A stretch of 42,396 nucleotides of DNA from a virus: the IMG/VR virus record IMGVR_UViG_3300044737_000120, positions 1 to 42,396 of that record. The stretch is one strand, 5' to 3'. The position numbers were made by a program, and so were the translations under genes. Below, one piece after another: positions 18,308 to 42,396 of the stretch (position 1 is the first letter of the stretch; every line of letters starts with the position of its first letter). The notes under the pieces were generated by a model that did not search any database, was not told the origin of the DNA, and worked only from the letters and a program-made list of their open reading frames with translations.

Positions 18308-18329
18308 AAAACCCACCTAAAACCCACCT
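18308..18329. repeat. 11-bp tandem repeat carrying the ribosome site of the protease gene
   Basis: Two exact 11-bp copies, AAAACCCACCT at 18308-18318 and 18319-18329 on the plus strand; on the minus strand the unit reads AGGTGGGTTTT. The copy nearer the gene supplies the only plausible ribosome site (AGGTGGG) before the protease ATG. The other overlaps the stop of the upstream gpF-like gene. Duplicate sites could raise initiation or be simple slippage. Confidence 0.8.
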
Positions 18330-19632
18330 AAACGCTCGCGTGCGGCGCGAACGCGGCATCCAGCGCCACCGCTGCCACGCTGATTGCCGGAGCGCCCGGA
18401 TACGCCGTTTTTGACGCATCCCGCGCCGCTTTCGTCGTCCGCGGCGCTTTTGAAAAGACCAGGTACCCCTTCCGAAGCTTTTCGATCTCGGCAGCCGAGC
18501 TCACCCCGCCCCGCGCGATCCAGCCGCTCGGCGCCTGGTCGGCCCAGATCCAGACCGTCTCGCCGGCGACATCGAACGCGCCGAAGAATCGCTTGACCAC
18601 CTCGACGCCTTCATCGGTTGCAAATGGAACGAACCACACTTCAGCCGGCTCGGTCAGCAGATCCGGCAGCAGCGCCGCCAGCTCTGGCTCGGTGTCGCCG
18701 AAGATCGCGTCATAGCTGCCGCGGTTGACGACGGCGCCGTCGCCGAACATGTCGGGCACGAACGTCGACTCCAGCTCGTCCGGCATGCCGGTGGCCTCGC
18801 GCAGCGCCTCCCACCCCTCTTCCGCGTCGGCCGCGGCCGCGAGCTCCGGCGCCTCGACGATTTCCTCGGCCGCCATCTCGCCGAGCGGCCCGAGGCTGTA
18901 GGTCTCCGCGTCGCCAGCGGTCAGCTCGCTGGTGAGCTTCGTGAGCTCCTCGATCAGTTGCCGGCCATCGGTCGCGAGCAGCGACGGCTGCATGTCGAAG
19001 CCGGCGTCGGGGATCATTTGCGTGCCTTCGATGACGGCGTACTCCTCATCTTCGGAGGTCAAGATCACCTTGCCGCCCTTCTCTGCGAAGGCGGCAGCCT
19101 GCTCGCGCGTCATCGACACGAGCGCGAGGTGTCGTTCGTTGAAGTGGTTCGGCGGCGCGATGTGGTTCCACCCGGGCCAATCCGCTTCGGCCATGAATCC
19201 CTGGAGGCTGAAGCAAATCGCGGTGGTCTTCGCATCGCTCGGCCCGAGCGGATACATCCAGATCGGGCGCTGATCCGCGACGGCGCGCATCTTCTCGATG
19301 CGCGCGCTCGAGTAGGCGACCGCTGTCGCCTGGCGAATGACGAGGTTCTGCCGCGCGACCGGAAGGATCGATCCGCCGTTGGCGGCCGCCGCTTTCGCGT
19401 AGTCGGCGCGGAACTGCGCGGGCGTGGTGCCGTTGCGCAGCGCGTCGTCGATCATGCGATGCGTCGCTACGACCTCAGCCTGGCGCGCGAGACCGCTGAC
19501 GTAGAACGAACGCAGCCGAGCATCAGAGGAGAGTTTCGCCACCGCCGCATCGGTCATCGGCACACGCGAGCGGTGATACGCGACCGCCTCGCTGAAAAAG
19601 CGATCCATCCGCTGGAGGCTAGGAGTCGGCAC
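18328..19632 (-). CDS. head morphogenesis protein (Mu gpF-like) with C-terminal BECR-like domain
   Basis: A 434-residue protein of the Mu gpF family, which helps assemble the head at the portal vertex. The N-terminal region (to about 200) has the helical arrangement and the central WPGWNHIAPPNHFNERHLALV motif of the family. After an acidic alanine-rich linker, residues about 300-410 form a separate domain: LAALLPDLLTEPAEVWFVPF, then VEVVKRFFGAFDVAG and TVWIWADQAPSGWIAR. That order of strands resembles the BECR (barnase/EndoU/colicin/RelE-like) nucleases seen fused to phage head proteins. GTG start at 19632 follows CAGGAGGTGGCCA. No active site is proven. Confidence 0.8.
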   Translation of the reverse strand: MPTPSLQRMDRFFSEAVAYHRSRVPMTDAAVAKLSSDARLRSFYVSGLARQAEVVATHRMIDDALRNGTTPAQFRADYAKAAAANGGSILPVARQNLVIRQATAVAYSSARIEKMRAVADQRPIWMYPLGPSDAKTTAICFSLQGFMAEADWPGWNHIAPPNHFNERHLALVSMTREQAAAFAEKGGKVILTSEDEEYAVIEGTQMIPDAGFDMQPSLLATDGRQLIEELTKLTSELTAGDAETYSLGPLGEMAAEEIVEAPELAAAADAEEGWEALREATGMPDELESTFVPDMFGDGAVVNRGSYDAIFGDTEPELAALLPDLLTEPAEVWFVPFATDEGVEVVKRFFGAFDVAGETVWIWADQAPSGWIARGGVSSAAEIEKLRKGYLVFSKAPRTTKAARDASKTAYPGAPAISVAAVALDAAFAPHASV

Positions 19633-30265: not shown

Positions 30266-30453
30266 CCGAGCGCACGACCGTCGACGTGACGCCTTGCGCG
30301 CGTTGTGGCGAGGACCACGAGGCGCTCGCTCTTCACCGCCGATCCAAACCAATCCAGCTCGGCAACTTCCTCTACTACTTCTGGGCCCTCTGCCCCACAA
30401 CAACAAGGGTCCTCCACGTCCGAATCGCGCAGTCCGGAGCCGAGCAATCGTGA
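30262..30453 (+). CDS. small zinc-binding early protein
   Basis: A 63-residue protein beginning MTERTTVDVTPCARCGEDHEALALH. CARC with the following histidines could bind zinc. It then has LGNFLYYFWALCPTTTRVLHV, with a second cysteine, so a treble-clef/ribbon of CxxC-H-H/C type is possible. It joins the transposase start as GTGA. Function unknown; perhaps regulation of transposition. Confidence 0.5.
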   Translation: MTERTTVDVTPCARCGEDHEALALHRRSKPIQLGNFLYYFWALCPTTTRVLHVRIAQSGAEQS

Positions 30454-32753
30454 TCGACATCGCGCAACCGCCGCTCGCCGCGATCGATCCGCTGCCGGCG
30501 GATGTCGTCGCATCGCTGATGGGTCTTCACCCGCGATCGGTGCGGCGGCTGGCGACCAAAGGCACTTCGCTCCGCATTGCGCGGCGCGAGGTCAGAGGGC
30601 GTAACGCAAACGCCGTTCTGATCGAGTTCGATTCGATCCCGCCGGTGTATCAGGCGGCGTACATCAAGTCGCGCCCGGAGCTGCTCGCGTCGATCGCCGC
30701 GGCGGCGACCGCGGAGAAGCGCGAGGAGAAGTTCTCGCGCGCAACCGCGGCGGTCCGCGCGCGTGTTCTGGCGCGCGAAGAAGCGGTGATCGCCTGGCGC
30801 GCCTTTCTCGCCGGCGACGCGCGCTCGGAAGCCGAGCAGCAGGGCTTCGTCGACGCGCACCGCGATGCGTTCGTGGTCCGCGTCGACGAGAAAACCGCGT
30901 ATCCGCTGAGCATCTCCAGGCGCTCACTCGGCCGCTGGACAAAGGCGTACCGCCAGCAAGGGCGCGACGGCCTGGTCGACGGCCGCGGGCGTCCGAAAGG
31001 CACCGTCACCTTCTCCAAAGAAATCCGCGACCGCGCCGAGGAGCTGTATCTGCGCTACCCGCGCCGGACGATCGCGCAGTGCTACCGCATCCTCGGAGAC
31101 GAGGCGCCGCGCAACAAGTGGAAGCTCCCGAGCTACGACGCGATCCACGCCCATCTCTCTGGGTTGTCGCCGGCGCGCGTGCGCTATCACCGCTTCCCCG
31201 AGACACGGCACAAGGACATCCGTCCCTTCGTCATCGGCGACTACGAGTCGACGCAGGTGATGGAGATGATCGAGAGCGATCACCATCAGATCGACGTTCC
31301 GGTCAACTGTGAAGCGCCGTTCTGCGAGATCTCGCATTTCCCCTGGCTGACGGTCTGGTACGACGTCCGTTCGCGCAAGGTGCTCGACATCGAGCTCTAT
31401 GTGGATCCGCCGAACAGCCGGCACATCATGGAGTCGCTGCATCGGGTGTGGCTGCGGTACGGCCTCAATCGCTACAGCCACATCGACAACGGCGCCGACT
31501 ACATCCGCGGCCTCGGCAAGTGGGGCTGGAAGCATTACGAGGTCGGCCGCCGCGGCGCGAAGCTCCAGGAGTGCGCCGGCTTCGATCCTGAGTCGGTCAA
31601 CCGCGTGGTCGGTCCCTTCGGAGTCGAGGCGATCTTCTCGATCCCCGGCGAGCCCCAGGGAAAGATCGTCGAGCGTTGGTTCAGGACGCTCGGGATCCAG
31701 CTCTATCCGGAGTTCGAGGCGTACCGCGGCGCCCTGGGCGAGCGAAGCGATCGCGCCGAGTACTTGCGCAAGCACCCGGCCGAGTGCCCGACGCTGCGCG
31801 ATCTGCGCAACGCGCTCGATACGACGGTCGCGAAGTATCACGAGCGGCCACACCGTGGCAGCGGCATGGACGGCCGTTCGCCGAACGAGGTTTTTGCCGA
31901 CGAGTCGATCCGCTACCCGCGCCGCGATCCGGACGCCGCGGCGCTGGCCTATGCCTTCTGGCACGAGAAGGTGGGCGCGCAGGTCGGCCGCAACGGCATC
32001 GTCTTCCAGAAGCGCACCTACCGCCTCGAGCCGAAAACGCACGCCGACTACCTGCTCCAGAAGGTCGTCATCCGCTGGCACGAGGAAAAGCCCGGGATCA
32101 TCGTCGTGTGCGACGCGATGGGGCGCTTCATCGGCGTCGCGACCGACGTCACCTCCTCGGCCTCGGCGCCGAAGGGCCGCTCGCCGCAAGTCGGCGAGGC
32201 GATCGCCGGCCGCAACGCCTTCTGGAACGCCGTTAAAGGCGAATGGGAGGCGATGCATCCACGGATGCGCAATCGCCTGGCGGGCGTCGAGGCGGACGAG
32301 TACGAGCGGCTGATCGCCAAGCGTGACGAGATGTCCACGCCGGCGGCGATCGCCGTCGACGCCTCCGGCGGCTCGGTGACGATCGTCGATCGCCACCTCT
32401 CACCCCTCGCGCGCCAGGTGATCGAAGCCGAAGCGCGCATTGCCAATCCATTCGACCTCTCCGCTGCCGACCTCGCGCTCGCCGAAGTGAAAGGGACTGA
32501 ATTTGTTTCCGCAGACCTCCTCAGAGAACGCCACGCAGAGTTTTTCCTCAAACACGCGAGCGTCGACAGCGAAGAGACCGAAGAGGAGCGGCGCTACGTC
32601 GCCGAGGAGCTGAGCGCGGCCGCGCTGCGCCAGCTCAAAACGCAACGGGACGAAGAGGGGATGTGCGTCTACGACCTCGAATGCCCGAACCTGGGGGACT
32701 TCTCCAAAGACATGTGCTTCGACCACTACGAGATCGTTTTCGGCGCGAGCTGA
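30450..32753 (+). CDS. DDE transposase (MuA-like)
   Basis: A 767-residue transposase that cuts at both phage ends and joins them to target DNA. The N-terminal region has DNA-binding helix-turn-helix domains (DPLPADVVASLMGLHPRSVRRLATKG; LGRWTKAYRQQGRDGLVDGRGRPKG). The DDE core has Asp-277 (ESDHHQID), Asp-346 (HIDNG) and Glu-408 (GKIVERWF), with spacings matching MuA. The C-terminal barrel and an end domain (from about 560) would bind MuB. The GTG at 30450 overlaps the previous stop. The end has an acidic helical region and a terminal cysteine pair. Strong identification. Confidence 0.93.
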   Translation: MIDIAQPPLAAIDPLPADVVASLMGLHPRSVRRLATKGTSLRIARREVRGRNANAVLIEFDSIPPVYQAAYIKSRPELLASIAAAATAEKREEKFSRATAAVRARVLAREEAVIAWRAFLAGDARSEAEQQGFVDAHRDAFVVRVDEKTAYPLSISRRSLGRWTKAYRQQGRDGLVDGRGRPKGTVTFSKEIRDRAEELYLRYPRRTIAQCYRILGDEAPRNKWKLPSYDAIHAHLSGLSPARVRYHRFPETRHKDIRPFVIGDYESTQVMEMIESDHHQIDVPVNCEAPFCEISHFPWLTVWYDVRSRKVLDIELYVDPPNSRHIMESLHRVWLRYGLNRYSHIDNGADYIRGLGKWGWKHYEVGRRGAKLQECAGFDPESVNRVVGPFGVEAIFSIPGEPQGKIVERWFRTLGIQLYPEFEAYRGALGERSDRAEYLRKHPAECPTLRDLRNALDTTVAKYHERPHRGSGMDGRSPNEVFADESIRYPRRDPDAAALAYAFWHEKVGAQVGRNGIVFQKRTYRLEPKTHADYLLQKVVIRWHEEKPGIIVVCDAMGRFIGVATDVTSSASAPKGRSPQVGEAIAGRNAFWNAVKGEWEAMHPRMRNRLAGVEADEYERLIAKRDEMSTPAAIAVDASGGSVTIVDRHLSPLARQVIEAEARIANPFDLSAADLALAEVKGTEFVSADLLRERHAEFFLKHASVDSEETEEERRYVAEELSAAALRQLKTQRDEEGMCVYDLECPNLGDFSKDMCFDHYEIVFGAS

Positions 32754-32783: not shown

Positions 32784-33797
32784 ATGACAGTCGCAGATTT
32801 TCGGGACACCAAACAGCAAAAAGCCCCTCCGGCTGGACCCGGAGAGGCTTCACTCGATTCGGCGGTCATCGAGCTGACGAGACGTCGGGCTCAAGACCAC
32901 AAAGACACCCGAGGATACTCGGAAATTGAGCTCGCCGCCAACATCACCAAGCGGACCGGCGAGACCCTGAGCGCGGCGTCCGTCGGCGCCTTTCTGCGCA
33001 ACAAGTACGGCGCGGACGAGAGCGAAATCGCCCGGAAGATCGAGATCTACCTCGACGCCGAAGAGCAGCGCTTGAAGATCGGCGGGCCGCTGGCCTTCGT
33101 TCGCACGACGGTATTTCGCGACGTCGAACGCGCCGTTTTGATCGCAGAGAAGATGCGCATGATCGCGGTCATCTCCACCGCGGCTGGATTCGGCAAAACG
33201 ACGATCATCGGCCAGCTTCTCGAGGAGAGAAATGCGATCTACATCCCGGCCACCGATGAGTTGAGCGCGCCGTGGATGCTCAAGATGGAGCTGGTCTACC
33301 GCCTGGGTGGAGCGTCGTCGCCAAAACGCAAGGCGCTTCCCACACGCGACGTCGTTCGCATGCTGACTCGGCGCAATCGGCCGACGATCTTCGTTGACGA
33401 AGCACAGAAGATCGATAGCCAGCGCATCGACGAGCTACGGTGCATCGCCGACCAAGCTCAATGCCCGATCGTCCTGGCTGGCAACGAGAAGGTCTACGAG
33501 CGGGCCGACAGCGCCGACTCCGGGCACGCTCAATACACCTCGCGCGTAATCGCTCGCGTGCACCTCGGAGCGGAGAAGACGAAGTCCGCCGATGTGCGGC
33601 TGATCGCCTCCCAGATCGTCGACAAGGAGGCCGTCGACTCGTCGCTCGACCTCCTGCTTGCCGCCGCCAGGCGCGAAGGGACCTTCCGCACCGTCACGGG
33701 CATCCTCAACGTCGCCAAGATCCTGTTCGACACCGTCTCCCCATCCCGCGAGCAGGTGCTCAAGGCGATGGCCTACATGAAGGGCGGTGCAGCGTGA
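32784..33797 (+). CDS. target-capture AAA+ ATPase (MuB-like)
   Basis: A 337-residue ATPase that picks insertion targets, activates the transposase and gives immunity. Residues 45-90 are an N-terminal helix-turn-helix as in MuB (EIELAANITKRTGETLSAASVGAFLRNKYG). Walker A STAAGFGKTT is at 131-140 and Walker B TIFVDEAQ at 201-208, followed by an arginine-finger-like region (HAQYTSRVIARVHLG). Start follows AAAGGAGCAACTGAA. It is directly after the transposase, the Mu order. Confidence 0.92.
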   Translation: MTVADFRDTKQQKAPPAGPGEASLDSAVIELTRRRAQDHKDTRGYSEIELAANITKRTGETLSAASVGAFLRNKYGADESEIARKIEIYLDAEEQRLKIGGPLAFVRTTVFRDVERAVLIAEKMRMIAVISTAAGFGKTTIIGQLLEERNAIYIPATDELSAPWMLKMELVYRLGGASSPKRKALPTRDVVRMLTRRNRPTIFVDEAQKIDSQRIDELRCIADQAQCPIVLAGNEKVYERADSADSGHAQYTSRVIARVHLGAEKTKSADVRLIASQIVDKEAVDSSLDLLLAAARREGTFRTVTGILNVAKILFDTVSPSREQVLKAMAYMKGGAA

Positions 33798-34844: not shown

Positions 34845-35348
34845 ATGCAACGCCTGGCTATTTGCGTCTTCTTTCTAGTGATGAGTTCCGGGACCGCTGT
34901 GGCGATCCGCGCGGAACAGAAGCAAACCTGCGTCATCCCTTTCGAATGGTGCCTGACCGGTTGCCCGGAGCTCGGCGCCTACTCGATCGAGTCGTTCTCG
35001 TCGACCTCGGATGAGCAGGCGTTCGTTGCGGCGCTGACCGGCCTGCAGCAGGAGACGGTTCGCGTGGCCATGTTCCCGGCCAACGGCAAGCACATCGTCG
35101 TCGCCTACCGCGTTCTCGCCGGCGCCGCGCCACATGCGACGGCGACGATCGGCGTCTGCCCGACGTCGACCGTGGCGCTGCATTCCTACTTCGCGATCGA
35201 GACGGCGACGGTCGAAGCAACCCGCCTCTCGATCGAGCAGCGATCGTCGATCGCGCTCTTCAGCGTCTTTCCCGTCAACACCAACGATCCGAACACGCGC
35301 GCGCTCCTCGTGGTGCGCCAGGAGGCCGAGCATGGCGACATCGATTAG
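34845..35348 (+). CDS. secreted early protein
   Basis: A 167-residue exported protein with a signal peptide (MQRLAICVFFLVMSSGTAVA, cleavage near AVA-I). The mature chain has a CVIPFEWCLTGC cluster and a later cysteine (IGVCPTST), suggesting disulfides, then a helical/strand part. It is in the early operon, so it is made soon after infection and could change the cell surface, but no family is recognised. It overlaps the next gene by 17 bases. Confidence 0.55.
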   Translation: MQRLAICVFFLVMSSGTAVAIRAEQKQTCVIPFEWCLTGCPELGAYSIESFSSTSDEQAFVAALTGLQQETVRVAMFPANGKHIVVAYRVLAGAAPHATATIGVCPTSTVALHSYFAIETATVEATRLSIEQRSSIALFSVFPVNTNDPNTRALLVVRQEAEHGDID

Positions 35349-35640: not shown

Positions 35641-35694
35641 ACCGCCTGCGTCTGCGCCGCGTCCGAGACGGTCACGGCGCAGAGCGGAGGCGGT
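35641..35694 (+). terminator. G/C-rich stem-loop after the acidic protein gene
   Basis: Directly after the stop, ACCGCCT (35641-35647) pairs with AGGCGGT (35688-35694), and CTGCGCCG (35652-35659) with CGGCGCAG (35675-35682), with a small internal loop between. No T-run follows. It may slow or partly end the early transcript before the cassette. The rest of the gap (to 35781) shows no gene. Confidence 0.5.
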
Positions 35695-35781
35695 TCGTCT
35701 GCGCCGTGTTGCGCGGGTGGGAGGGGTGGCGGGGGAGCGTGGGCCGAAGCGGTGGCCGCGCAGCACGGCGGAGGCGATCAG

Positions 35782-35804
35782 GGACCTCTGCGCTTGACTA
35801 AAGC
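35782..35804. repeat. left arm of a perfect 23-bp inverted repeat
   Basis: Starts GGACCTCTGC and ends TTGACTAAAGC. Its exact reverse complement is at 36447-36469. Together they flank the exported-protein gene. The arm includes TTGACT, a possible -35 box, but no good -10 was found at the right distance. Confidence 0.95.
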
Positions 35805-35841
35805 AACTTCAACTTTTCAACAACGGGAGGGAGTGAGATTC

Positions 35842-36435
35842 ATGAGAACCAAGACGATTTTTCTTTTCCTGATGGTGATGCTCGTCAGCGTCGGCGCGTT
35901 CGCGCAGAACGATGACGAGGTGTACTACCCTGACTATGGCCTAGATGGAGGCGGCGGAGGCGGCTGGGGGATTTGCTACCGCTGCGCCATCTACGGAAAC
36001 AACACAGCGTCGTGCCTCCCGGGAGAGTTCGATCCGGAAAGACCGTTTGGTTACCCCGGCTACACAAGCTGCACGAGGCATCAAGTCCCCCCGGGATACC
36101 AAGGCCCGCCGTACTGCACGGTGTCCGGCTTCTGCCTTTCGGTGGGGGCGAACAAGGATTCGGCGTCGGAACTGGAAAGGCAGACTGTCGCAATCGCGAC
36201 GTACTTCCTGGAGTCCAAGCTCATGAAGCCGGACGACCTAAGCGACTTCATCGCCGTGACCGATTACGCGCTGCGCGATAACCCCCAAGCTTCCGGCGCG
36301 TCGAGGAAGCGGCTCGACATGTACAGGGCGAAGTTCAAACTCCTGACAGGGGATGAATTGAAGCCGGGGTACGTCCCCGTGCACCCTAAACCTCCGACAA
36401 AAGCCCCGGCCTCCATCACGGCGGCGGCGCGCTGA
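35842..36435 (+). CDS. exported cysteine-containing protein in an inverted-repeat-flanked cassette
   Basis: A 197-residue secreted protein with signal peptide MRTKTIFLFLMVMLVSVGAFA (cleavage before Gln-22). The mature chain begins with an acidic/tyrosine stretch and a glycine run (DGGGGGGWG), then has CYRC, SCLPG, SCTRH, YCTVSGFC spread as in a disulfide-bonded domain. A helical part follows (ELERQTVAIATYFLESKL...DDLSDFIAVTDYAL). The end is proline- and alanine-rich. Start ATG at 35842 follows GGGAGGGAG. The gene and its flanks are bounded by perfect 23-bp inverted repeats. Function unknown; likely host-surface or cell-interaction related. Confidence 0.6.
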   Translation: MRTKTIFLFLMVMLVSVGAFAQNDDEVYYPDYGLDGGGGGGWGICYRCAIYGNNTASCLPGEFDPERPFGYPGYTSCTRHQVPPGYQGPPYCTVSGFCLSVGANKDSASELERQTVAIATYFLESKLMKPDDLSDFIAVTDYALRDNPQASGASRKRLDMYRAKFKLLTGDELKPGYVPVHPKPPTKAPASITAAAR

Positions 36436-36446
36436 TTCAGTCACCC

Positions 36447-36469
36447 GCTTTAGTCAAGCGCAGAGGTCC
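36447..36469. repeat. right arm of a perfect 23-bp inverted repeat
   Basis: Exact reverse complement of 35782-35804: begins GCTTTAGTC and ends AGAGGTCC. It lies 12 bases after the exported-protein stop and 15 bases before the Gam start. Paired in RNA it would form a very long-range stem; paired as DNA it would mark a mobile or invertible segment of about 690 bp. Confidence 0.95.
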
Positions 36470-36483
36470 TGGAGAAGACGCCG

Positions 36484-37062
36484 ATGAAAGGGAGGGGAGC
36501 CGTGGCAAAGAAAGCGACAACGACGGAGCCGGCCGCGCCGGTAATCAAGATCACGAGTTGTGATGAGGCCGATCGCCGAGGGCTGGAGCTCGCTCAGGCG
36601 CACCTGAAGCGCGAAGCGCTGCAGAACACCGTGAACCTGGCGAAGGCGGCGATCGATCAGAAGTACGCCGAGGAGCTCGACGAGCTGGCGAACAAGGAGC
36701 ACGAGCTTCAATGCGCGCTCGACGCCTTCGCCGCGAAACACAAGCGCGCCGAAGATCTCAACTACATCGAGATCGTCAGCACCGGCGGCAGCAACGCCAT
36801 CACTTACGACGTCGACGAGGCGGACGTCATCAAGCGGATCAAACGATCCGCGACGTGGGCGCACCTGGTCAAGGTCAAAGAGTTCCTCAACAAGCGCGAC
36901 CTCGCGAAGATCCCGACGAAGCTGCACGAAAAATTCGGGTTCCGTTTCGGCCCCACCGCCGTGACCTTCAGCGTGAAGCCGAAGATCGAGGCCGTCCGCA
37001 TCCACGCGGAACGCGCGCAGGAGAAGCATGCGCGGGATAAGGCCGCCGCCCGTTCCCGATAG
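36484..37062 (+). CDS. host-nuclease inhibitor (Mu Gam-like)
   Basis: A 192-residue Gam family protein, which binds DNA ends and shields them from RecBCD-type nucleases. The pattern is ADRRGLELAQAHLKREALQNTVNLAKAAIDQKYAEELDELANKEHELQCALDAFAAKHK, the paired helices, then LVKVKEFLNKRDLAKIPTKLHEKFGFRFGPTAVTFSVKPKIE. ATG at 36484 follows GGAGAAGACGCCG; a GTG at 36502 (after GGGAGGGGAGCC) is an alternative start and has a better site. Short distance from the right inverted repeat. Confidence 0.85.
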   Translation: MKGRGAVAKKATTTEPAAPVIKITSCDEADRRGLELAQAHLKREALQNTVNLAKAAIDQKYAEELDELANKEHELQCALDAFAAKHKRAEDLNYIEIVSTGGSNAITYDVDEADVIKRIKRSATWAHLVKVKEFLNKRDLAKIPTKLHEKFGFRFGPTAVTFSVKPKIEAVRIHAERAQEKHARDKAAARSR

Positions 37063-37297
37063 CAACTCTTCCCGGCGGCGACGCCGGGCTGCACGTCAGT
37101 GAGCAGCGAAAGGAGGCACCTAGCGAACGATTCCAAAGCGAAATCCGGCCGTGGCCGCGAAGAGAAGAACGCCCCGCTTGATGTGGAAAGTCGAGTGTGC
37201 AGCGCTCAAGACCTTGCGAAAAACGCGAACCACGGCGCGGATCGATCGGAGGCGGCGTGCCGGTCCTGATGAGCAGCCAAAGAAAAGGAGATTCCCG
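37063..37297 (+). other. 235-bp stretch: hairpin and an unclear short frame
   Basis: After the Gam stop, CCCGGCG (37071-37077), loop GCGA, and CGCCGGG (37082-37088) form a hairpin with a GNRA loop. An AAAGGAGG site (near 37110) has no start codon in reach. Two short frames cross the region, one basic from GTG 37151 that continues into the next gene, the other ending on the TGATG at 37267-37271. Codon bias does not separate them, so I do not call a gene here. Confidence 0.4.
37247..37278 (+). repeat. 32-bp leader repeat, copy A
   Basis: Begins CGGAGGCGGCG and ends CTGATGAGCAGCC. It differs from the copy at 37605-37636 in 2 of 32 bases. It lies before the 89-residue protein gene. Confidence 0.85.
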
Positions 37298-37301
37298 ATG
37301 A
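37269..37301 (+). CDS. 10-codon upstream open frame
   Basis: ATG at 37269, within the leader repeat, reads MSSQRKGDSR and stops at 37299-37301, overlapping the next gene's ATG as ATGA. It could couple translation, or be chance. The same repeat lies at the start of the 120-residue protein downstream. Confidence 0.35.
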   Translation: MSSQRKGDSR

Positions 37302-37567
37302 ACGTACAGACCGTAAGAACGAAGTTTTTCTGCAGGGAAGTAACCGTCCACAACGAGTCGCCGACGAGCGGCGCCGTGGTGAAGCTGGCGGCTGTCAACA
37401 ACAGCCATCCTTCCCACGAAAACAGGCAGTCCGGGGTGTCCACCGCGAGCACGCAAGACGGCGGGCTGACGCTCTACATCAGCAACCCTCAAACGCGGGC
37501 GTTCTTCGTGGCCGGCGCCGAGTACTACCTCGACTTCACGCCGGCGCCGCCCACGGCGTCCTGCTGA
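37298..37567 (+). CDS. hypothetical early protein
   Basis: An 89-residue protein; ATG at 37298 has a good site AAAGGAGATTCCCG. It is strand-rich: TVHNESPTSGAVVKLAAVNNS, then GGLTLYISNPQTRAFFVAGAEYYLDFTPA, like a small beta-sandwich. Two cysteines (FFCRE, last ASC). No family. It lies between the two leader-repeat copies. Confidence 0.5.
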   Translation: MNVQTVRTKFFCREVTVHNESPTSGAVVKLAAVNNSHPSHENRQSGVSTASTQDGGLTLYISNPQTRAFFVAGAEYYLDFTPAPPTASC

Positions 37568-39006: not shown

Positions 39007-39285
39007 ATGATGAATCTTGATGAGGTAGCGCACGCGCCGCAGCTCGATCACGAGATCCTGCTGGGTCATGGACTCGACTGGGTGACCGAGAAGCGGGTCT
39101 TCACGTGCGTGCAGTGCGGAAAGGAGATCCGCCGCGCTGTGAAAACTCTTGGTCAGCAAACGCCTCTTTCGATGGCGGGCCTGAAGCTGCGAGAAAAGGA
39201 GTGCGTGAGGACGCTCGCGCGGTTCGTCGGCACGGGTCGGTCTCGGGCGCTTTCTGAGGTTCCGAGGATGGCGAAATCGTCGTGA
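39007..39285 (+). CDS. hypothetical protein with CxxC motif
   Basis: A 92-residue protein with FTCVQCGKEIRR, a half zinc site, and a later lone cysteine (EKECVRTL). The last residues are a charged helix. It ends in a GTGA overlap with the adenine methylase. Function unknown. Confidence 0.5.
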   Translation: MMNLDEVAHAPQLDHEILLGHGLDWVTEKRVFTCVQCGKEIRRAVKTLGQQTPLSMAGLKLREKECVRTLARFVGTGRSRALSEVPRMAKSS

Positions 39286-40133
39286 CTCAGGCGACCCTCT
39301 TTGCTCCTCCTCGGCGACCCGTGATGCGGTACCACGGTGGAAAGTTTCGCATCCGCAACTGGGTGATCGCTGAGTTCCCACCGCACCGCGTCTACGTTGA
39401 ACCTTTCGGGGGAGGGGCATCGGTGCTGCTCGGTAAGCAGCGCGCTCACGCGGAGGTCTACAACGACATCGACGGCGAGGTCGTCAACGTCTTCCGTGTC
39501 CTTCGAGACGACGTCGACTCAGCTCGGTTAGAGCGGCTGCTCCGACTCACACCATTCGCTCGTGCCGAGTTAGTTGATAGCTACGAGCCGACAGACGATC
39601 GCGTCGAAGCTGCTCGCCGGATGATCGTCCGCTCGTTCATGGGGTTTTCGTCGGCATCGGTGACAAAGGAGCACCGAACCGGATTCCGAGGAAACGCCAC
39701 GAGCTCGCGAGTGACGTCGGCCGTTGATTGGACCAACTACGTCGAGCATCTTCCTTCGTTCGTCGCGCGCCTTCGTGGCGTGGCGATCGAGAACTCTGAC
39801 GCGCTCCAGGTCATCCGAAAGTACGACAGCGACGAAACGCTCTTCTATGTTGATCCTCCGTATCCATTCGACACCCGTTTCAAGGGTGCTCGGTGGGGCG
39901 ATTGTTACCGCTTCGAAATGAGCGGTCCGCAGCATCGAGTACTCGCTGAACTGCTGCGCGACGTCAGAGGCATGGTGATCGTCTCGTCGTACCCGAGTGC
40001 TCAGTACGCCCAGCTCTATAAGGGTTGGCGATGTATCCGGAAGCGCTCCTTGGCTAGCGGCCAGAATTCAAGCTCGCCGCGGATTGAAGTGCTGTGGGTA
40101 TCACCAAGCGCCGACGCCAGGAGAGCCGCGTGA
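39282..40133 (+). CDS. adenine-N6 DNA methyltransferase (Dam/D12 type)
   Basis: A 283-residue methyltransferase of the D12 class, which adds methyl groups to adenine in DNA. Motif I YVEPFGGGASVLL (about 38-50) binds S-adenosylmethionine, motif IV is DPPYPFD (191-197), and N-terminal RYHGGKFRI and internal RRMIVRSFMGF also fit. It lacks a fused restriction enzyme. In phages such enzymes protect against host restriction or regulate transcription. GTG start overlaps the previous gene; stop overlaps the next as GTGA. The target sequence cannot be read from the gene. Confidence 0.9.
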   Translation: MTQATLFAPPRRPVMRYHGGKFRIRNWVIAEFPPHRVYVEPFGGGASVLLGKQRAHAEVYNDIDGEVVNVFRVLRDDVDSARLERLLRLTPFARAELVDSYEPTDDRVEAARRMIVRSFMGFSSASVTKEHRTGFRGNATSSRVTSAVDWTNYVEHLPSFVARLRGVAIENSDALQVIRKYDSDETLFYVDPPYPFDTRFKGARWGDCYRFEMSGPQHRVLAELLRDVRGMVIVSSYPSAQYAQLYKGWRCIRKRSLASGQNSSSPRIEVLWVSPSADARRAA

Positions 40134-41005
40134 GCGTAGCGCAACTCGACGTCGCCATCGATCGGCCGCTAGCGATTGACCTCTTTTGCGGGTTTGGCGG
40201 ATGGACTAACGGCCTGCTCGCTGAGGGATGGGATGTCATCGGATTCGACATCGAACAGCACGTCTACGTCGAACACCGCTATCCCGCGCAGCTTGTGCTG
40301 CAGGACGTCCGGACGATTCATGGCGCTCAATTCCGCAGCGCTTCGCTGATCGTTGCCTCCTCGCCTTGTCAAGAGTTCAGCTACCGCGCGATGCCGTGGA
40401 AGCGCGCGAAGTCGCTCGGCCCGCCGCTTCTCGGGATGGAGCTGTTCGCTCAGGCCGCACGGATTCAGCGCGAGGCAATCGCTGCGACTGGTCGCTTCAT
40501 CCCGATGATTCAGGAGAACGTGCGAGGCGCGCAGAAGTACGTCGGGCGAGCTCGCTGGCATTACGGCTCGTTCTACCTTTGGGGTGACGTGCCGGCGTTG
40601 ATGCCGATCACGCTCGGCGGCGTCAAAGTGAAGACCATGGGCGCCGGCTGGTACCCGCCTGGTCATCCGCGTCACGTTCCAGGCCTCGGCTTCAACACCC
40701 ACGCCGATCGCCAGATGCGCACGAATGACGCGATCAAAGTGGGCGGCGCACGCGGAGACGATTGGTTCACTCATCACAACCGCGACGAGTTTGCAACGCG
40801 AGCTGGCGTGAAACAGCCCGGCATCGGCGGCGAACGCGCGAACGGCAAGGGTGATGCGTGGTTTCAGGACGGCGCAGCGCGGCACGGCTCCAAATCCTCC
40901 ACCCGCAAAGCCGCCTCGGCCCTCATCGCGAAGATCCCTCTACCGCTCGCGCGGCACATCGCACGCGTTTACTACCCAGCCGCCATTCGGGAACGTGCCC
41001 GGTGA
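40130..41005 (+). CDS. C5-cytosine DNA methyltransferase
   Basis: A 291-residue methyltransferase with motif I AIDLFCGFGGWTNGLL (15-30), catalytic motif IV SPCQEFSYR (Cys-80), motif VI ENV (129-131) and, at the end, ALIAKIPLPLARHIARVYYP, like motif X. The middle is short, so the target-recognition part is small. GTG at 40130 overlaps the adenine methylase stop; a longer frame from 40094 has no better site. The N-terminal MSVAQLDVAIDRPL is nearly identical to the first 14 residues of the DnaB encoded next. Confidence 0.82.
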   Translation: MSVAQLDVAIDRPLAIDLFCGFGGWTNGLLAEGWDVIGFDIEQHVYVEHRYPAQLVLQDVRTIHGAQFRSASLIVASSPCQEFSYRAMPWKRAKSLGPPLLGMELFAQAARIQREAIAATGRFIPMIQENVRGAQKYVGRARWHYGSFYLWGDVPALMPITLGGVKVKTMGAGWYPPGHPRHVPGLGFNTHADRQMRTNDAIKVGGARGDDWFTHHNRDEFATRAGVKQPGIGGERANGKGDAWFQDGAARHGSKSSTRKAASALIAKIPLPLARHIARVYYPAAIRERAR

Positions 41006-42396
41006 GCGTCGCGCAGCTCGACGTAGCCCTCGATCGGCCGCTGCCGCAGTCGCCTGACGCCGAGCGCGCCGTGCTGGGATCGATCCTCATCAACAACCAC
41101 GCCTTCTACCGCGTGGCCAGCACCATCACCACCGAGGATTTCTTCCGCGACGCGCACCGAACGATCTTCTCGACGATGCGCCGCCTGGCCGAGCAGAGCC
41201 GGGAGATCGACCTGTTGACGCTGCGCGAGGAACTCGCCAGGAGCGCGCAGCTCGAGCAGGTCGGCGGTACGGCCTACGTCTCCTCTCTCGTCGACGGCAT
41301 TCCAGACATCGCCAACGTCGAGCGCTATGCGCACATCGTGAAAGAGAAGTCGACGCTGCGCCGCCTCATCGTGATGGGAAACGCCGTCATGCGGGCGGCG
41401 CTCGACGCGCCGGCCGAGCCGGCCGAGGTCCTCGACATCGCCGAGCGATCGATCTATGCGATCGCCGAGGGCTCGACGGAGAAAGGCTTCGTCGCCCTCG
41501 ATCGGATCACTCGATCGAACATGAGTGCCATCGAGCAGCTCCAGCACTCCGGAAGACTGATCACCGGCATCCCCACCGGCTATGACCGCTTCAACGATTT
41601 CACCTCGGGATTCCAGCTGCAGGACCTGATCATCATCGCTGCGCGGCCCTCAATGGGAAAAACGGCCTTCGCCATGAACATCGCCAAGGCGATCGCCATC
41701 CCTGACCGCTCAGGGGATCCGCGGCCGCCAGCACAGCGGCTGTACACGGCCGGCATCTTCTCGCTCGAAATGTCGAAGGAACAGATCAACCTTCGCATGC
41801 TTTCGTCCGAGTCCGGTGTTTCAAATCACCTCATCCGCGCCGGCATGTTGAGCGAGCGAAACTGGCGCGATCTCGCCGACGCCTCGGCGCGCCTGGCGAA
41901 GGCCAAGATCTTCATCGACGACACACCCGGCGTCGACATCATGGATCTCCGCGCGAAGGCCCGCCGGCTGCAGCACGAGGCCGGGCTCGACCTGATCATG
42001 GTCGACTACCTCCAGCTGATGTCGGTGCGCGGCCGCACGGAGTCACGCAATCAGGAGGTCTCTCAGATCTCACGCGGGCTGAAGGCGGTAGCGAAGGAGC
42101 TCAACGTGCCGCTTATCGCGCTGTCGCAGCTGTCGCGCCGTCCGGAACAGCGGACCGGTGATCACCGGCCGCAGCTCTCCGACCTTCGCGATTCGGGATC
42201 CATCGAGCAGGACGCCGACGTCGTCTGCTTCATCTATCGCGATGAGGTCTACAACAAGGACACCGAGGAGAAAGGCATCGCCGAGATCATCATCGCCAAG
42301 CAGCGCAACGGCCCGATCGGCGACTTTAAGCTCGTCTTCCGAAACGACATCACCAAGTTCTTCAACTACGAGCCGACGCCGGACTACACACCATGA
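41002..42396 (+). CDS. dnaB: replicative DNA helicase (DnaB)
   Basis: A 464-residue DnaB-type helicase, complete. The N-terminal domain (LPQSPDAERAVLGSILINNHAFYRVASTITTEDFFRDAHRTIF) and linker precede the RecA-like motor: ARPSMGKTA (Walker A, 214-222), FSLEMSKEQ, LIMVDYLQLM (Walker B, 331-340), ALSQLSRRPEQR, and LRDSGSIEQDAD. It unwinds DNA at replication forks as a hexamer. A short insert (PDRSGDPRPPAQRLYTAG) lies before FSLEMS. GTG at 41002 overlaps the methylase stop. No loader gene is seen nearby. Mu uses host DnaB, so a phage copy is noteworthy. Confidence 0.95.
   Translation: MSVAQLDVALDRPLPQSPDAERAVLGSILINNHAFYRVASTITTEDFFRDAHRTIFSTMRRLAEQSREIDLLTLREELARSAQLEQVGGTAYVSSLVDGIPDIANVERYAHIVKEKSTLRRLIVMGNAVMRAALDAPAEPAEVLDIAERSIYAIAEGSTEKGFVALDRITRSNMSAIEQLQHSGRLITGIPTGYDRFNDFTSGFQLQDLIIIAARPSMGKTAFAMNIAKAIAIPDRSGDPRPPAQRLYTAGIFSLEMSKEQINLRMLSSESGVSNHLIRAGMLSERNWRDLADASARLAKAKIFIDDTPGVDIMDLRAKARRLQHEAGLDLIMVDYLQLMSVRGRTESRNQEVSQISRGLKAVAKELNVPLIALSQLSRRPEQRTGDHRPQLSDLRDSGSIEQDADVVCFIYRDEVYNKDTEEKGIAEIIIAKQRNGPIGDFKLVFRNDITKFFNYEPTPDYTP

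Follow-up and report, generated by a model that had tools for sequence, protein, structure and literature searches.

A 688-bp unit bounded by perfect inverted repeats is probably a non-autonomous mobile cassette that carries one secreted-protein gene between phages

A 688-bp unit in the early operon of a Mu-like phage is, in our assessment, probably an ultra-small mobile cassette of phages, non-autonomous and with a single secreted-protein gene as its cargo. The original prediction, made on the phage record that we analysed over its entire length of 42,396 nucleotides (the window), had listed such a cassette among several options, and this option is now supported by a relative in which the site is empty, by the presence of the unit in an unrelated phage and by arms that are invariant around a diverged cargo.

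Results

A single secreted-protein gene between two perfect arms

The unit begins with a left arm at 35782..35804 (+ strand; GGACCTCTGCGCTTGACTAAAGC, a terminal inverted repeat with the family consensus [C]AGRACCTCTGCGCTTGACTAAAGC) and ends with a right arm at 36447..36469 (− strand). As originally described, the right arm is the exact reverse complement of the left one (23/23 complementary positions, spacing 642 nt). Each arm adjoins a conserved sub-terminal sequence, AACTTCAACTTTTCAACA (35805..35822, +) on the left and CGCTGATTCAGTCACCC (36430..36446, +), which includes the stop codon of the gene, on the right. The arm pair is not due to chance, since the window holds no other near-copy of the arm and, apart from this pair, inverted repeats within 3 kb reach at most 15 bp in this genome. 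Likewise, near-copies with up to 3 mismatches were absent from 100 shuffles.

The unit contains no transposase and a single open reading frame, the cargo gene (35842..36435, +), preceded by its own ribosome site (GGGAGGGAG, 35825..35833, +), which is kept in the relatives; the prediction was right on these points as well. The product, a protein of 197 aa with six cysteines, comprises a signal peptide (MRTKTIFLFLMVMLVSVGAFAQ), a cysteine-containing N-terminal half and a proline-rich tail. Its C-terminal half is predicted to be helical by a low-confidence model, the AlphaFold model being poor (pLDDT 51). Profile searches of Pfam, PHROGs, NCBIfam and the PDB assigned the cargo to no family, and neither the cargo nor the whole unit had a match in phage and plasmid collections, deposited phage records included.

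The window encodes MuA (30294-32753), MuB (32784-33797), a Mu-like protease I protein, a Mu F-like protein and a GpA-type terminase. Note that the Mu F-like protein (18328-19632, −) ends with a PBECR2 (Barnase/EndoU/ColicinE5-RelE-like nuclease) domain that scores just below the curated cut-off. The unit lies in the rightward early operon, between the MuB-linked genes and Gam, and has the orientation of the operon, so that the cargo can be expressed from operon transcription with the help of its own ribosome site. The upstream neighbour (34845..35348, +), which is syntenic in all four Mu-like phages considered here, encodes another secreted cysteine-containing protein whose family is unassigned, while the downstream neighbour, the Mu Gam-like gene (36484..37062, +), marks the syntenic site.

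A gene for a full replicative helicase, DnaB, occupies the right end of the window (40999-42396, +). Its product is 89% identical to a chromosomal DnaB from Acidobacteriota, encoded by one genome of 6.4 Mb (G257), which points to this phylum as the probable host phylum. An otherwise unrelated viral contig (G302) carries a DnaB about 90% identical to that of the window. The 297 genomes searched in the phylum contained no cargo homologue, and neither the cargo nor the arm was found in 19 genomes of the order of G257 or in 149 of its class.

Four copies of the unit and one empty site

An exact scan of IMG/VR with the 18-bp core of the arm matched only three other contigs (G002, G003 and G004), in each of which two inverted arms, separated by about 650-730 bp, enclose the gene of a homologous secreted protein. 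The units are 688-773 bp long and have arms of 23-25 bp. The eight arms of the four phages vary at 1 position of 23. The cargo proteins are only 45-51% identical to one another, the window protein being 45-48% identical to the other three. That the arms stay identical while the interior changes is most simply explained if the arm sequence is recognised. G002 and G003 are Mu-like relatives that align with the window over about 29.7-31.2 kb, mostly at 70-80% identity, and carry the unit at the same site; all three carriers are soil phages. Scans with Gam and MuB for further relatives yielded nothing new.

An exported-protein gene framed by perfect inverted repeats of a typical length could also be an invertible segment, that is, an on/off switch in which the gene between the arms is inverted by a recombinase. 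This second option of the original prediction is very improbable. Indeed, the orientation of the gene relative to the neighbouring operon is identical in 4/4 copies, and the five phage records, some of which may be fragments, gave no match to the serine (PF00239) or tyrosine (PF00589) recombinase families in searches that were both positive in control genomes. The constant orientation together with the lack of such recombinases makes a switch unlikely.

An empty site, the search for which had been proposed at the outset, was found in a fourth Mu-like phage (IMGVR_UViG_3300024323_000012, hereafter G301; locus L035), identified through DnaB. From MuA to DnaB the gene order of G301 is that of the window, in full synteny, but the arms and the cargo homologue are absent. 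At this one empty site, the bare junction (GGAGGCAATTGCCGCCAGTGAAAGGG) reads GGAGGC-AATT-GCCGCCAGTGAAAGGG, with GGC-AATT-GCC as its core, whereas the best-preserved filled sites read GGC-GATC-[unit]-GATC-GCC. The tetranucleotide GATC is intact on both sides of the unit in two of the four filled sites, those of G003 (GGAGGC-GATC-AG[unit]CTG-GATC-ACCGC) and G004 (GGAGGC-GATC-CAG[unit]CT-GATC-GCCG), and degraded on one side in G002 (GGAGGC-GAAT...GATC-GCCG) and in the window (GGAGGC-GATC...GAGA). In the latter, the left copy of this putative 4-bp target duplication is at 35776..35779 and the degraded right copy, GAGA, at 36472-36475. The simplest reading is that the unit inserted into GGC-RATY-GCC and duplicated the four central bases, which later degraded on one side in two of the phages. 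As GATC is palindromic, the duplication can be told from a longer inverted repeat only by means of the empty site. The initial observation that no target duplication flanks the arms is thus correct for the window taken alone, with GATC on the left and GAGA on the right, but does not extend to G003 and G004, where GATC is present on both sides while G301 has a single AATT.

The window also encodes a D12-class adenine DNA methyltransferase (39282-40133, +); that the putative insertion target is GATC as well may be a coincidence.

An unrelated carrier and the divergence of the cargo

The fourth carrier, G004, is a 97-kb tailed phage of 58% GC whose backbone (terminase phrog_38, portal, primase-helicase) is unrelated to that of the Mu-like phages. 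The DNA that it has in common with them is limited to the unit and short flanks: homology extends beyond the arms over about 85 bp, including a hairpin termed H2 (see below), on one side, and on the opposite side over about 30-40 bp, as far as the next ribosome site. The unit occupies the Mu-like operon in three phages and, in G004, a different genome in which the immediate site is nevertheless the same, as judged from H2 and the short flanks. The homology past the arms also indicates that transfer was not purely arm-to-arm and that homologous recombination contributed to it. A scan for a relative of G004 with an empty site returned G004 alone. In addition, a small protein encoded at 37298-37567 (+) in the window has a 37%-identical relative in G004 (45564-46028), so that the two phages draw on a common gene pool beyond the cassette.

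We considered whether recombination, homologous or illegitimate, could have brought in the cargo as an ordinary moron, with arms that are a by-product and play no role of their own. Mosaicism is common among phages, no mobility enzyme was found for the unit, and flanks are shared with G004. Nonetheless, we regard this explanation as improbable: a by-product would be expected to decay, and yet the four phages have near-invariant arms around cargoes whose identity has fallen to the level given above, and a single 4-bp target is retained at the empty site. The related proposal that a moron had its promoter and terminator duplicated as an inverted repeat was rejected, as neither a sigma-70-like promoter nor a terminator was found at the arms. 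The label of moron may still be fair for the cargo itself.

In the three Mu-like carriers, 59-65% of the four-fold sites differ in the cargo gene, as against 33-51% in MuA, MuB, Gam and the preceding secreted gene, and the Mu-like cargo alleles are as distant from each other as they are from the G004 allele. Taken together, this excess and this equal distance suggest that the site has seen allele replacement. The cargo genes, however, display a weaker codon bias (GC3 of 0.66-0.77 versus 0.80-0.85), which inflates four-fold divergence and accounts for part, although not clearly all, of the excess; given this caveat, the case for allele replacement is suggestive only.

Hairpins at the putative insertion site

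Immediately upstream of the unit, the window contains two strong tandem hairpins (35641-35777, +; z-score −6.4). H1 (35641..35694, +) is restricted to the Mu-like relatives. H2 (35695..35777, +), an imperfect hairpin of 83 nt with a G-rich loop, has the putative insertion site (RATY) at its 3' foot. Compensatory changes keep H2 paired in the five phages, where it occurs once per genome, and in IMG/VR it was found only in these phages. H2 adjoins the unit in G004 and is present without it in G301. Either the unit targets H2, or H2, the unit and the next ribosome site travelled together to or from G004; in the latter case, homologous or illegitimate recombination would be needed beside any transposition. 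The runs of G in the loop of H2 could form a G-quadruplex.

The operon of the unit also encodes a type II hammerhead ribozyme about 150 bp 3' of Gam (37214-37282, +), which matches RF02276 with 41.3 bits, a value above the gathering score. The ribozyme is also found above threshold in G002 (L017 19365-19430), and similar DNA is present below threshold in G003 and G301.

These elements raise the question of whether the arms act in RNA rather than in DNA. The arms would then form a stem of 23-31 bp that closes off the cargo message within the operon transcript, acting as a site for RNase III, as an insulator or as a switch for the downstream ribosome site, and would constitute the third member of the H1-H2 series; the unit would have spread by homologous recombination as part of a larger module made of H2, the gene and the ribosome site. 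The unit is indeed co-directional with the operon in both contexts, the arms pair when the unit is folded as a whole, the neighbouring hairpins are strong and H2 exhibits compensatory changes, the ribozyme makes RNA processing in this operon plausible, and the block transferred in G004 takes in H2 and the ribosome region of the next gene. A structural stem, however, would be expected to drift while keeping its pairs, as H2 does, whereas compensatory changes form no clear pattern among the eight arms, whose sole variable position is unpaired in G003 (A opposite C). The arms hence look as if they were recognised as a sequence. Moreover, G301 retains H1 and H2 with no trace of an arm. On balance, a role of the arms in RNA seems rather unlikely, and we favour the mobile cassette.

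Discussion

The mobile-cassette reading can be put in the form of a scenario. The cassette would have entered the 3' foot of H2, with a 4-bp RATY sequence (GATC) as its target, and would have duplicated these 4 bp; the enzyme recognising the arms would have been supplied in trans; and the alleles would later have been exchanged between phages, partly through ordinary recombination within the ends and flanks, which are conserved. An autonomous partner or a transposase gene with the same arms was found neither in the viral contigs nor in 84,980 genomes. In these genomes the arm itself gave two single matches only, both at chance level, one of them upstream of rpoB. In the phage and plasmid collections, a query combining the arm with the sub-terminal sequence returned only plasmid matches at E=3 and no phage match.

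As for the cargo, it encodes an exported protein that diverges rapidly. Its likeliest role may be that of a moron acting at the surface or in the periplasm, for example in superinfection exclusion. Superinfection exclusion would fit best with what is established in phage biology, because the protein is exported, fast-diverging and swapped, and is encoded in the early operon of a temperate phage. It is possible, though doubtful, that the copies described here represent a distinct class of phage-restricted, hairpin-targeting cassettes with terminal inverted repeats, in which interchangeable secreted alleles of the superinfection-exclusion type move among unrelated Acidobacteriota phages by means of a transposase provided in trans by phage or host.

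How single morons enter phage genomes has mostly been deduced after the event. The present cassette, with a single gene, ends that do not vary, a relative that lacks it and a further carrier of unrelated backbone, offers a concrete and testable vehicle for them. If a transposase acting in trans does recognise the arms, the unit would be a minimal element for gene delivery in phages of a phylum that has received little study.

Several known systems resemble the unit in part. MITEs and those IS elements whose targets are hairpins or REP palindromes have terminal inverted repeats and generate a short target duplication. The unit resembles them in its terminal inverted repeats, in the lack of a transposase and in its insertion at the foot of a hairpin; unlike these elements, it has no known autonomous partner, carries a conserved protein gene, is single-copy and was found only in phages. 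The PeMobs and PeSLs of T4-type phages, reportedly described by Arbiol in 2010 and by Comeau in 2014, are said to be promoter-terminator motifs located between genes. They are similar to the unit in that conserved intergenic hairpins or regulatory sequences surround genes shuffled between phages by recombination, and dissimilar in that they do not form inverted terminal repeats around one gene; they are not known to be defined by any empty site with a short duplication.

Gene 60 of phage YungJamal is a single inserted gene flanked by a repeat of about 24 bp (PMC4351075). The repeats are imperfect (14/24 bp) and are called inverted in a figure legend and direct in the text (PMC4351075). Judging from this description, YungJamal gene 60 is, like the cargo, a single gene missing from close relatives and flanked by repeats of about 24 bp, but one copy of its repeat pre-exists at the empty site, whereas the arms of our unit are absent there and arrived with the gene.

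As far as a comparison by description goes, the nearest known kind is that of MPME1 and MPME2, ultra-small mobile elements of mycobacteriophages of about 440 bp with inverted repeats at their ends (PMC3029335, PMC4351075). The MPMEs contain one small ORF of 123 residues, add 6 unexplained bp beside IR-L and occupy several sites (PMC3029335, PMC4351075). By these descriptions, the unit differs from them in its length of 688-773 bp, its perfect arms of 23-25 bp, its exported cysteine-containing cargo (the MPME ORF is not described as exported in the portions cited), its single site per phage lineage, its probable 4-bp target duplication and the probable Acidobacteriota hosts of its phages. In particular, comparison of the filled junctions with the empty site shows 4-bp RATY on each side in place of a 6-bp addition of the MPME type. 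Since size, junction and cargo all differ in the descriptions, we set the unit apart and do not class it as an MPME. It nonetheless shares with MPME1 and MPME2 an ultra-small size, terminal inverted repeats, a single ORF, occurrence in differing phages and a definition drawn from the empty site of relatives.
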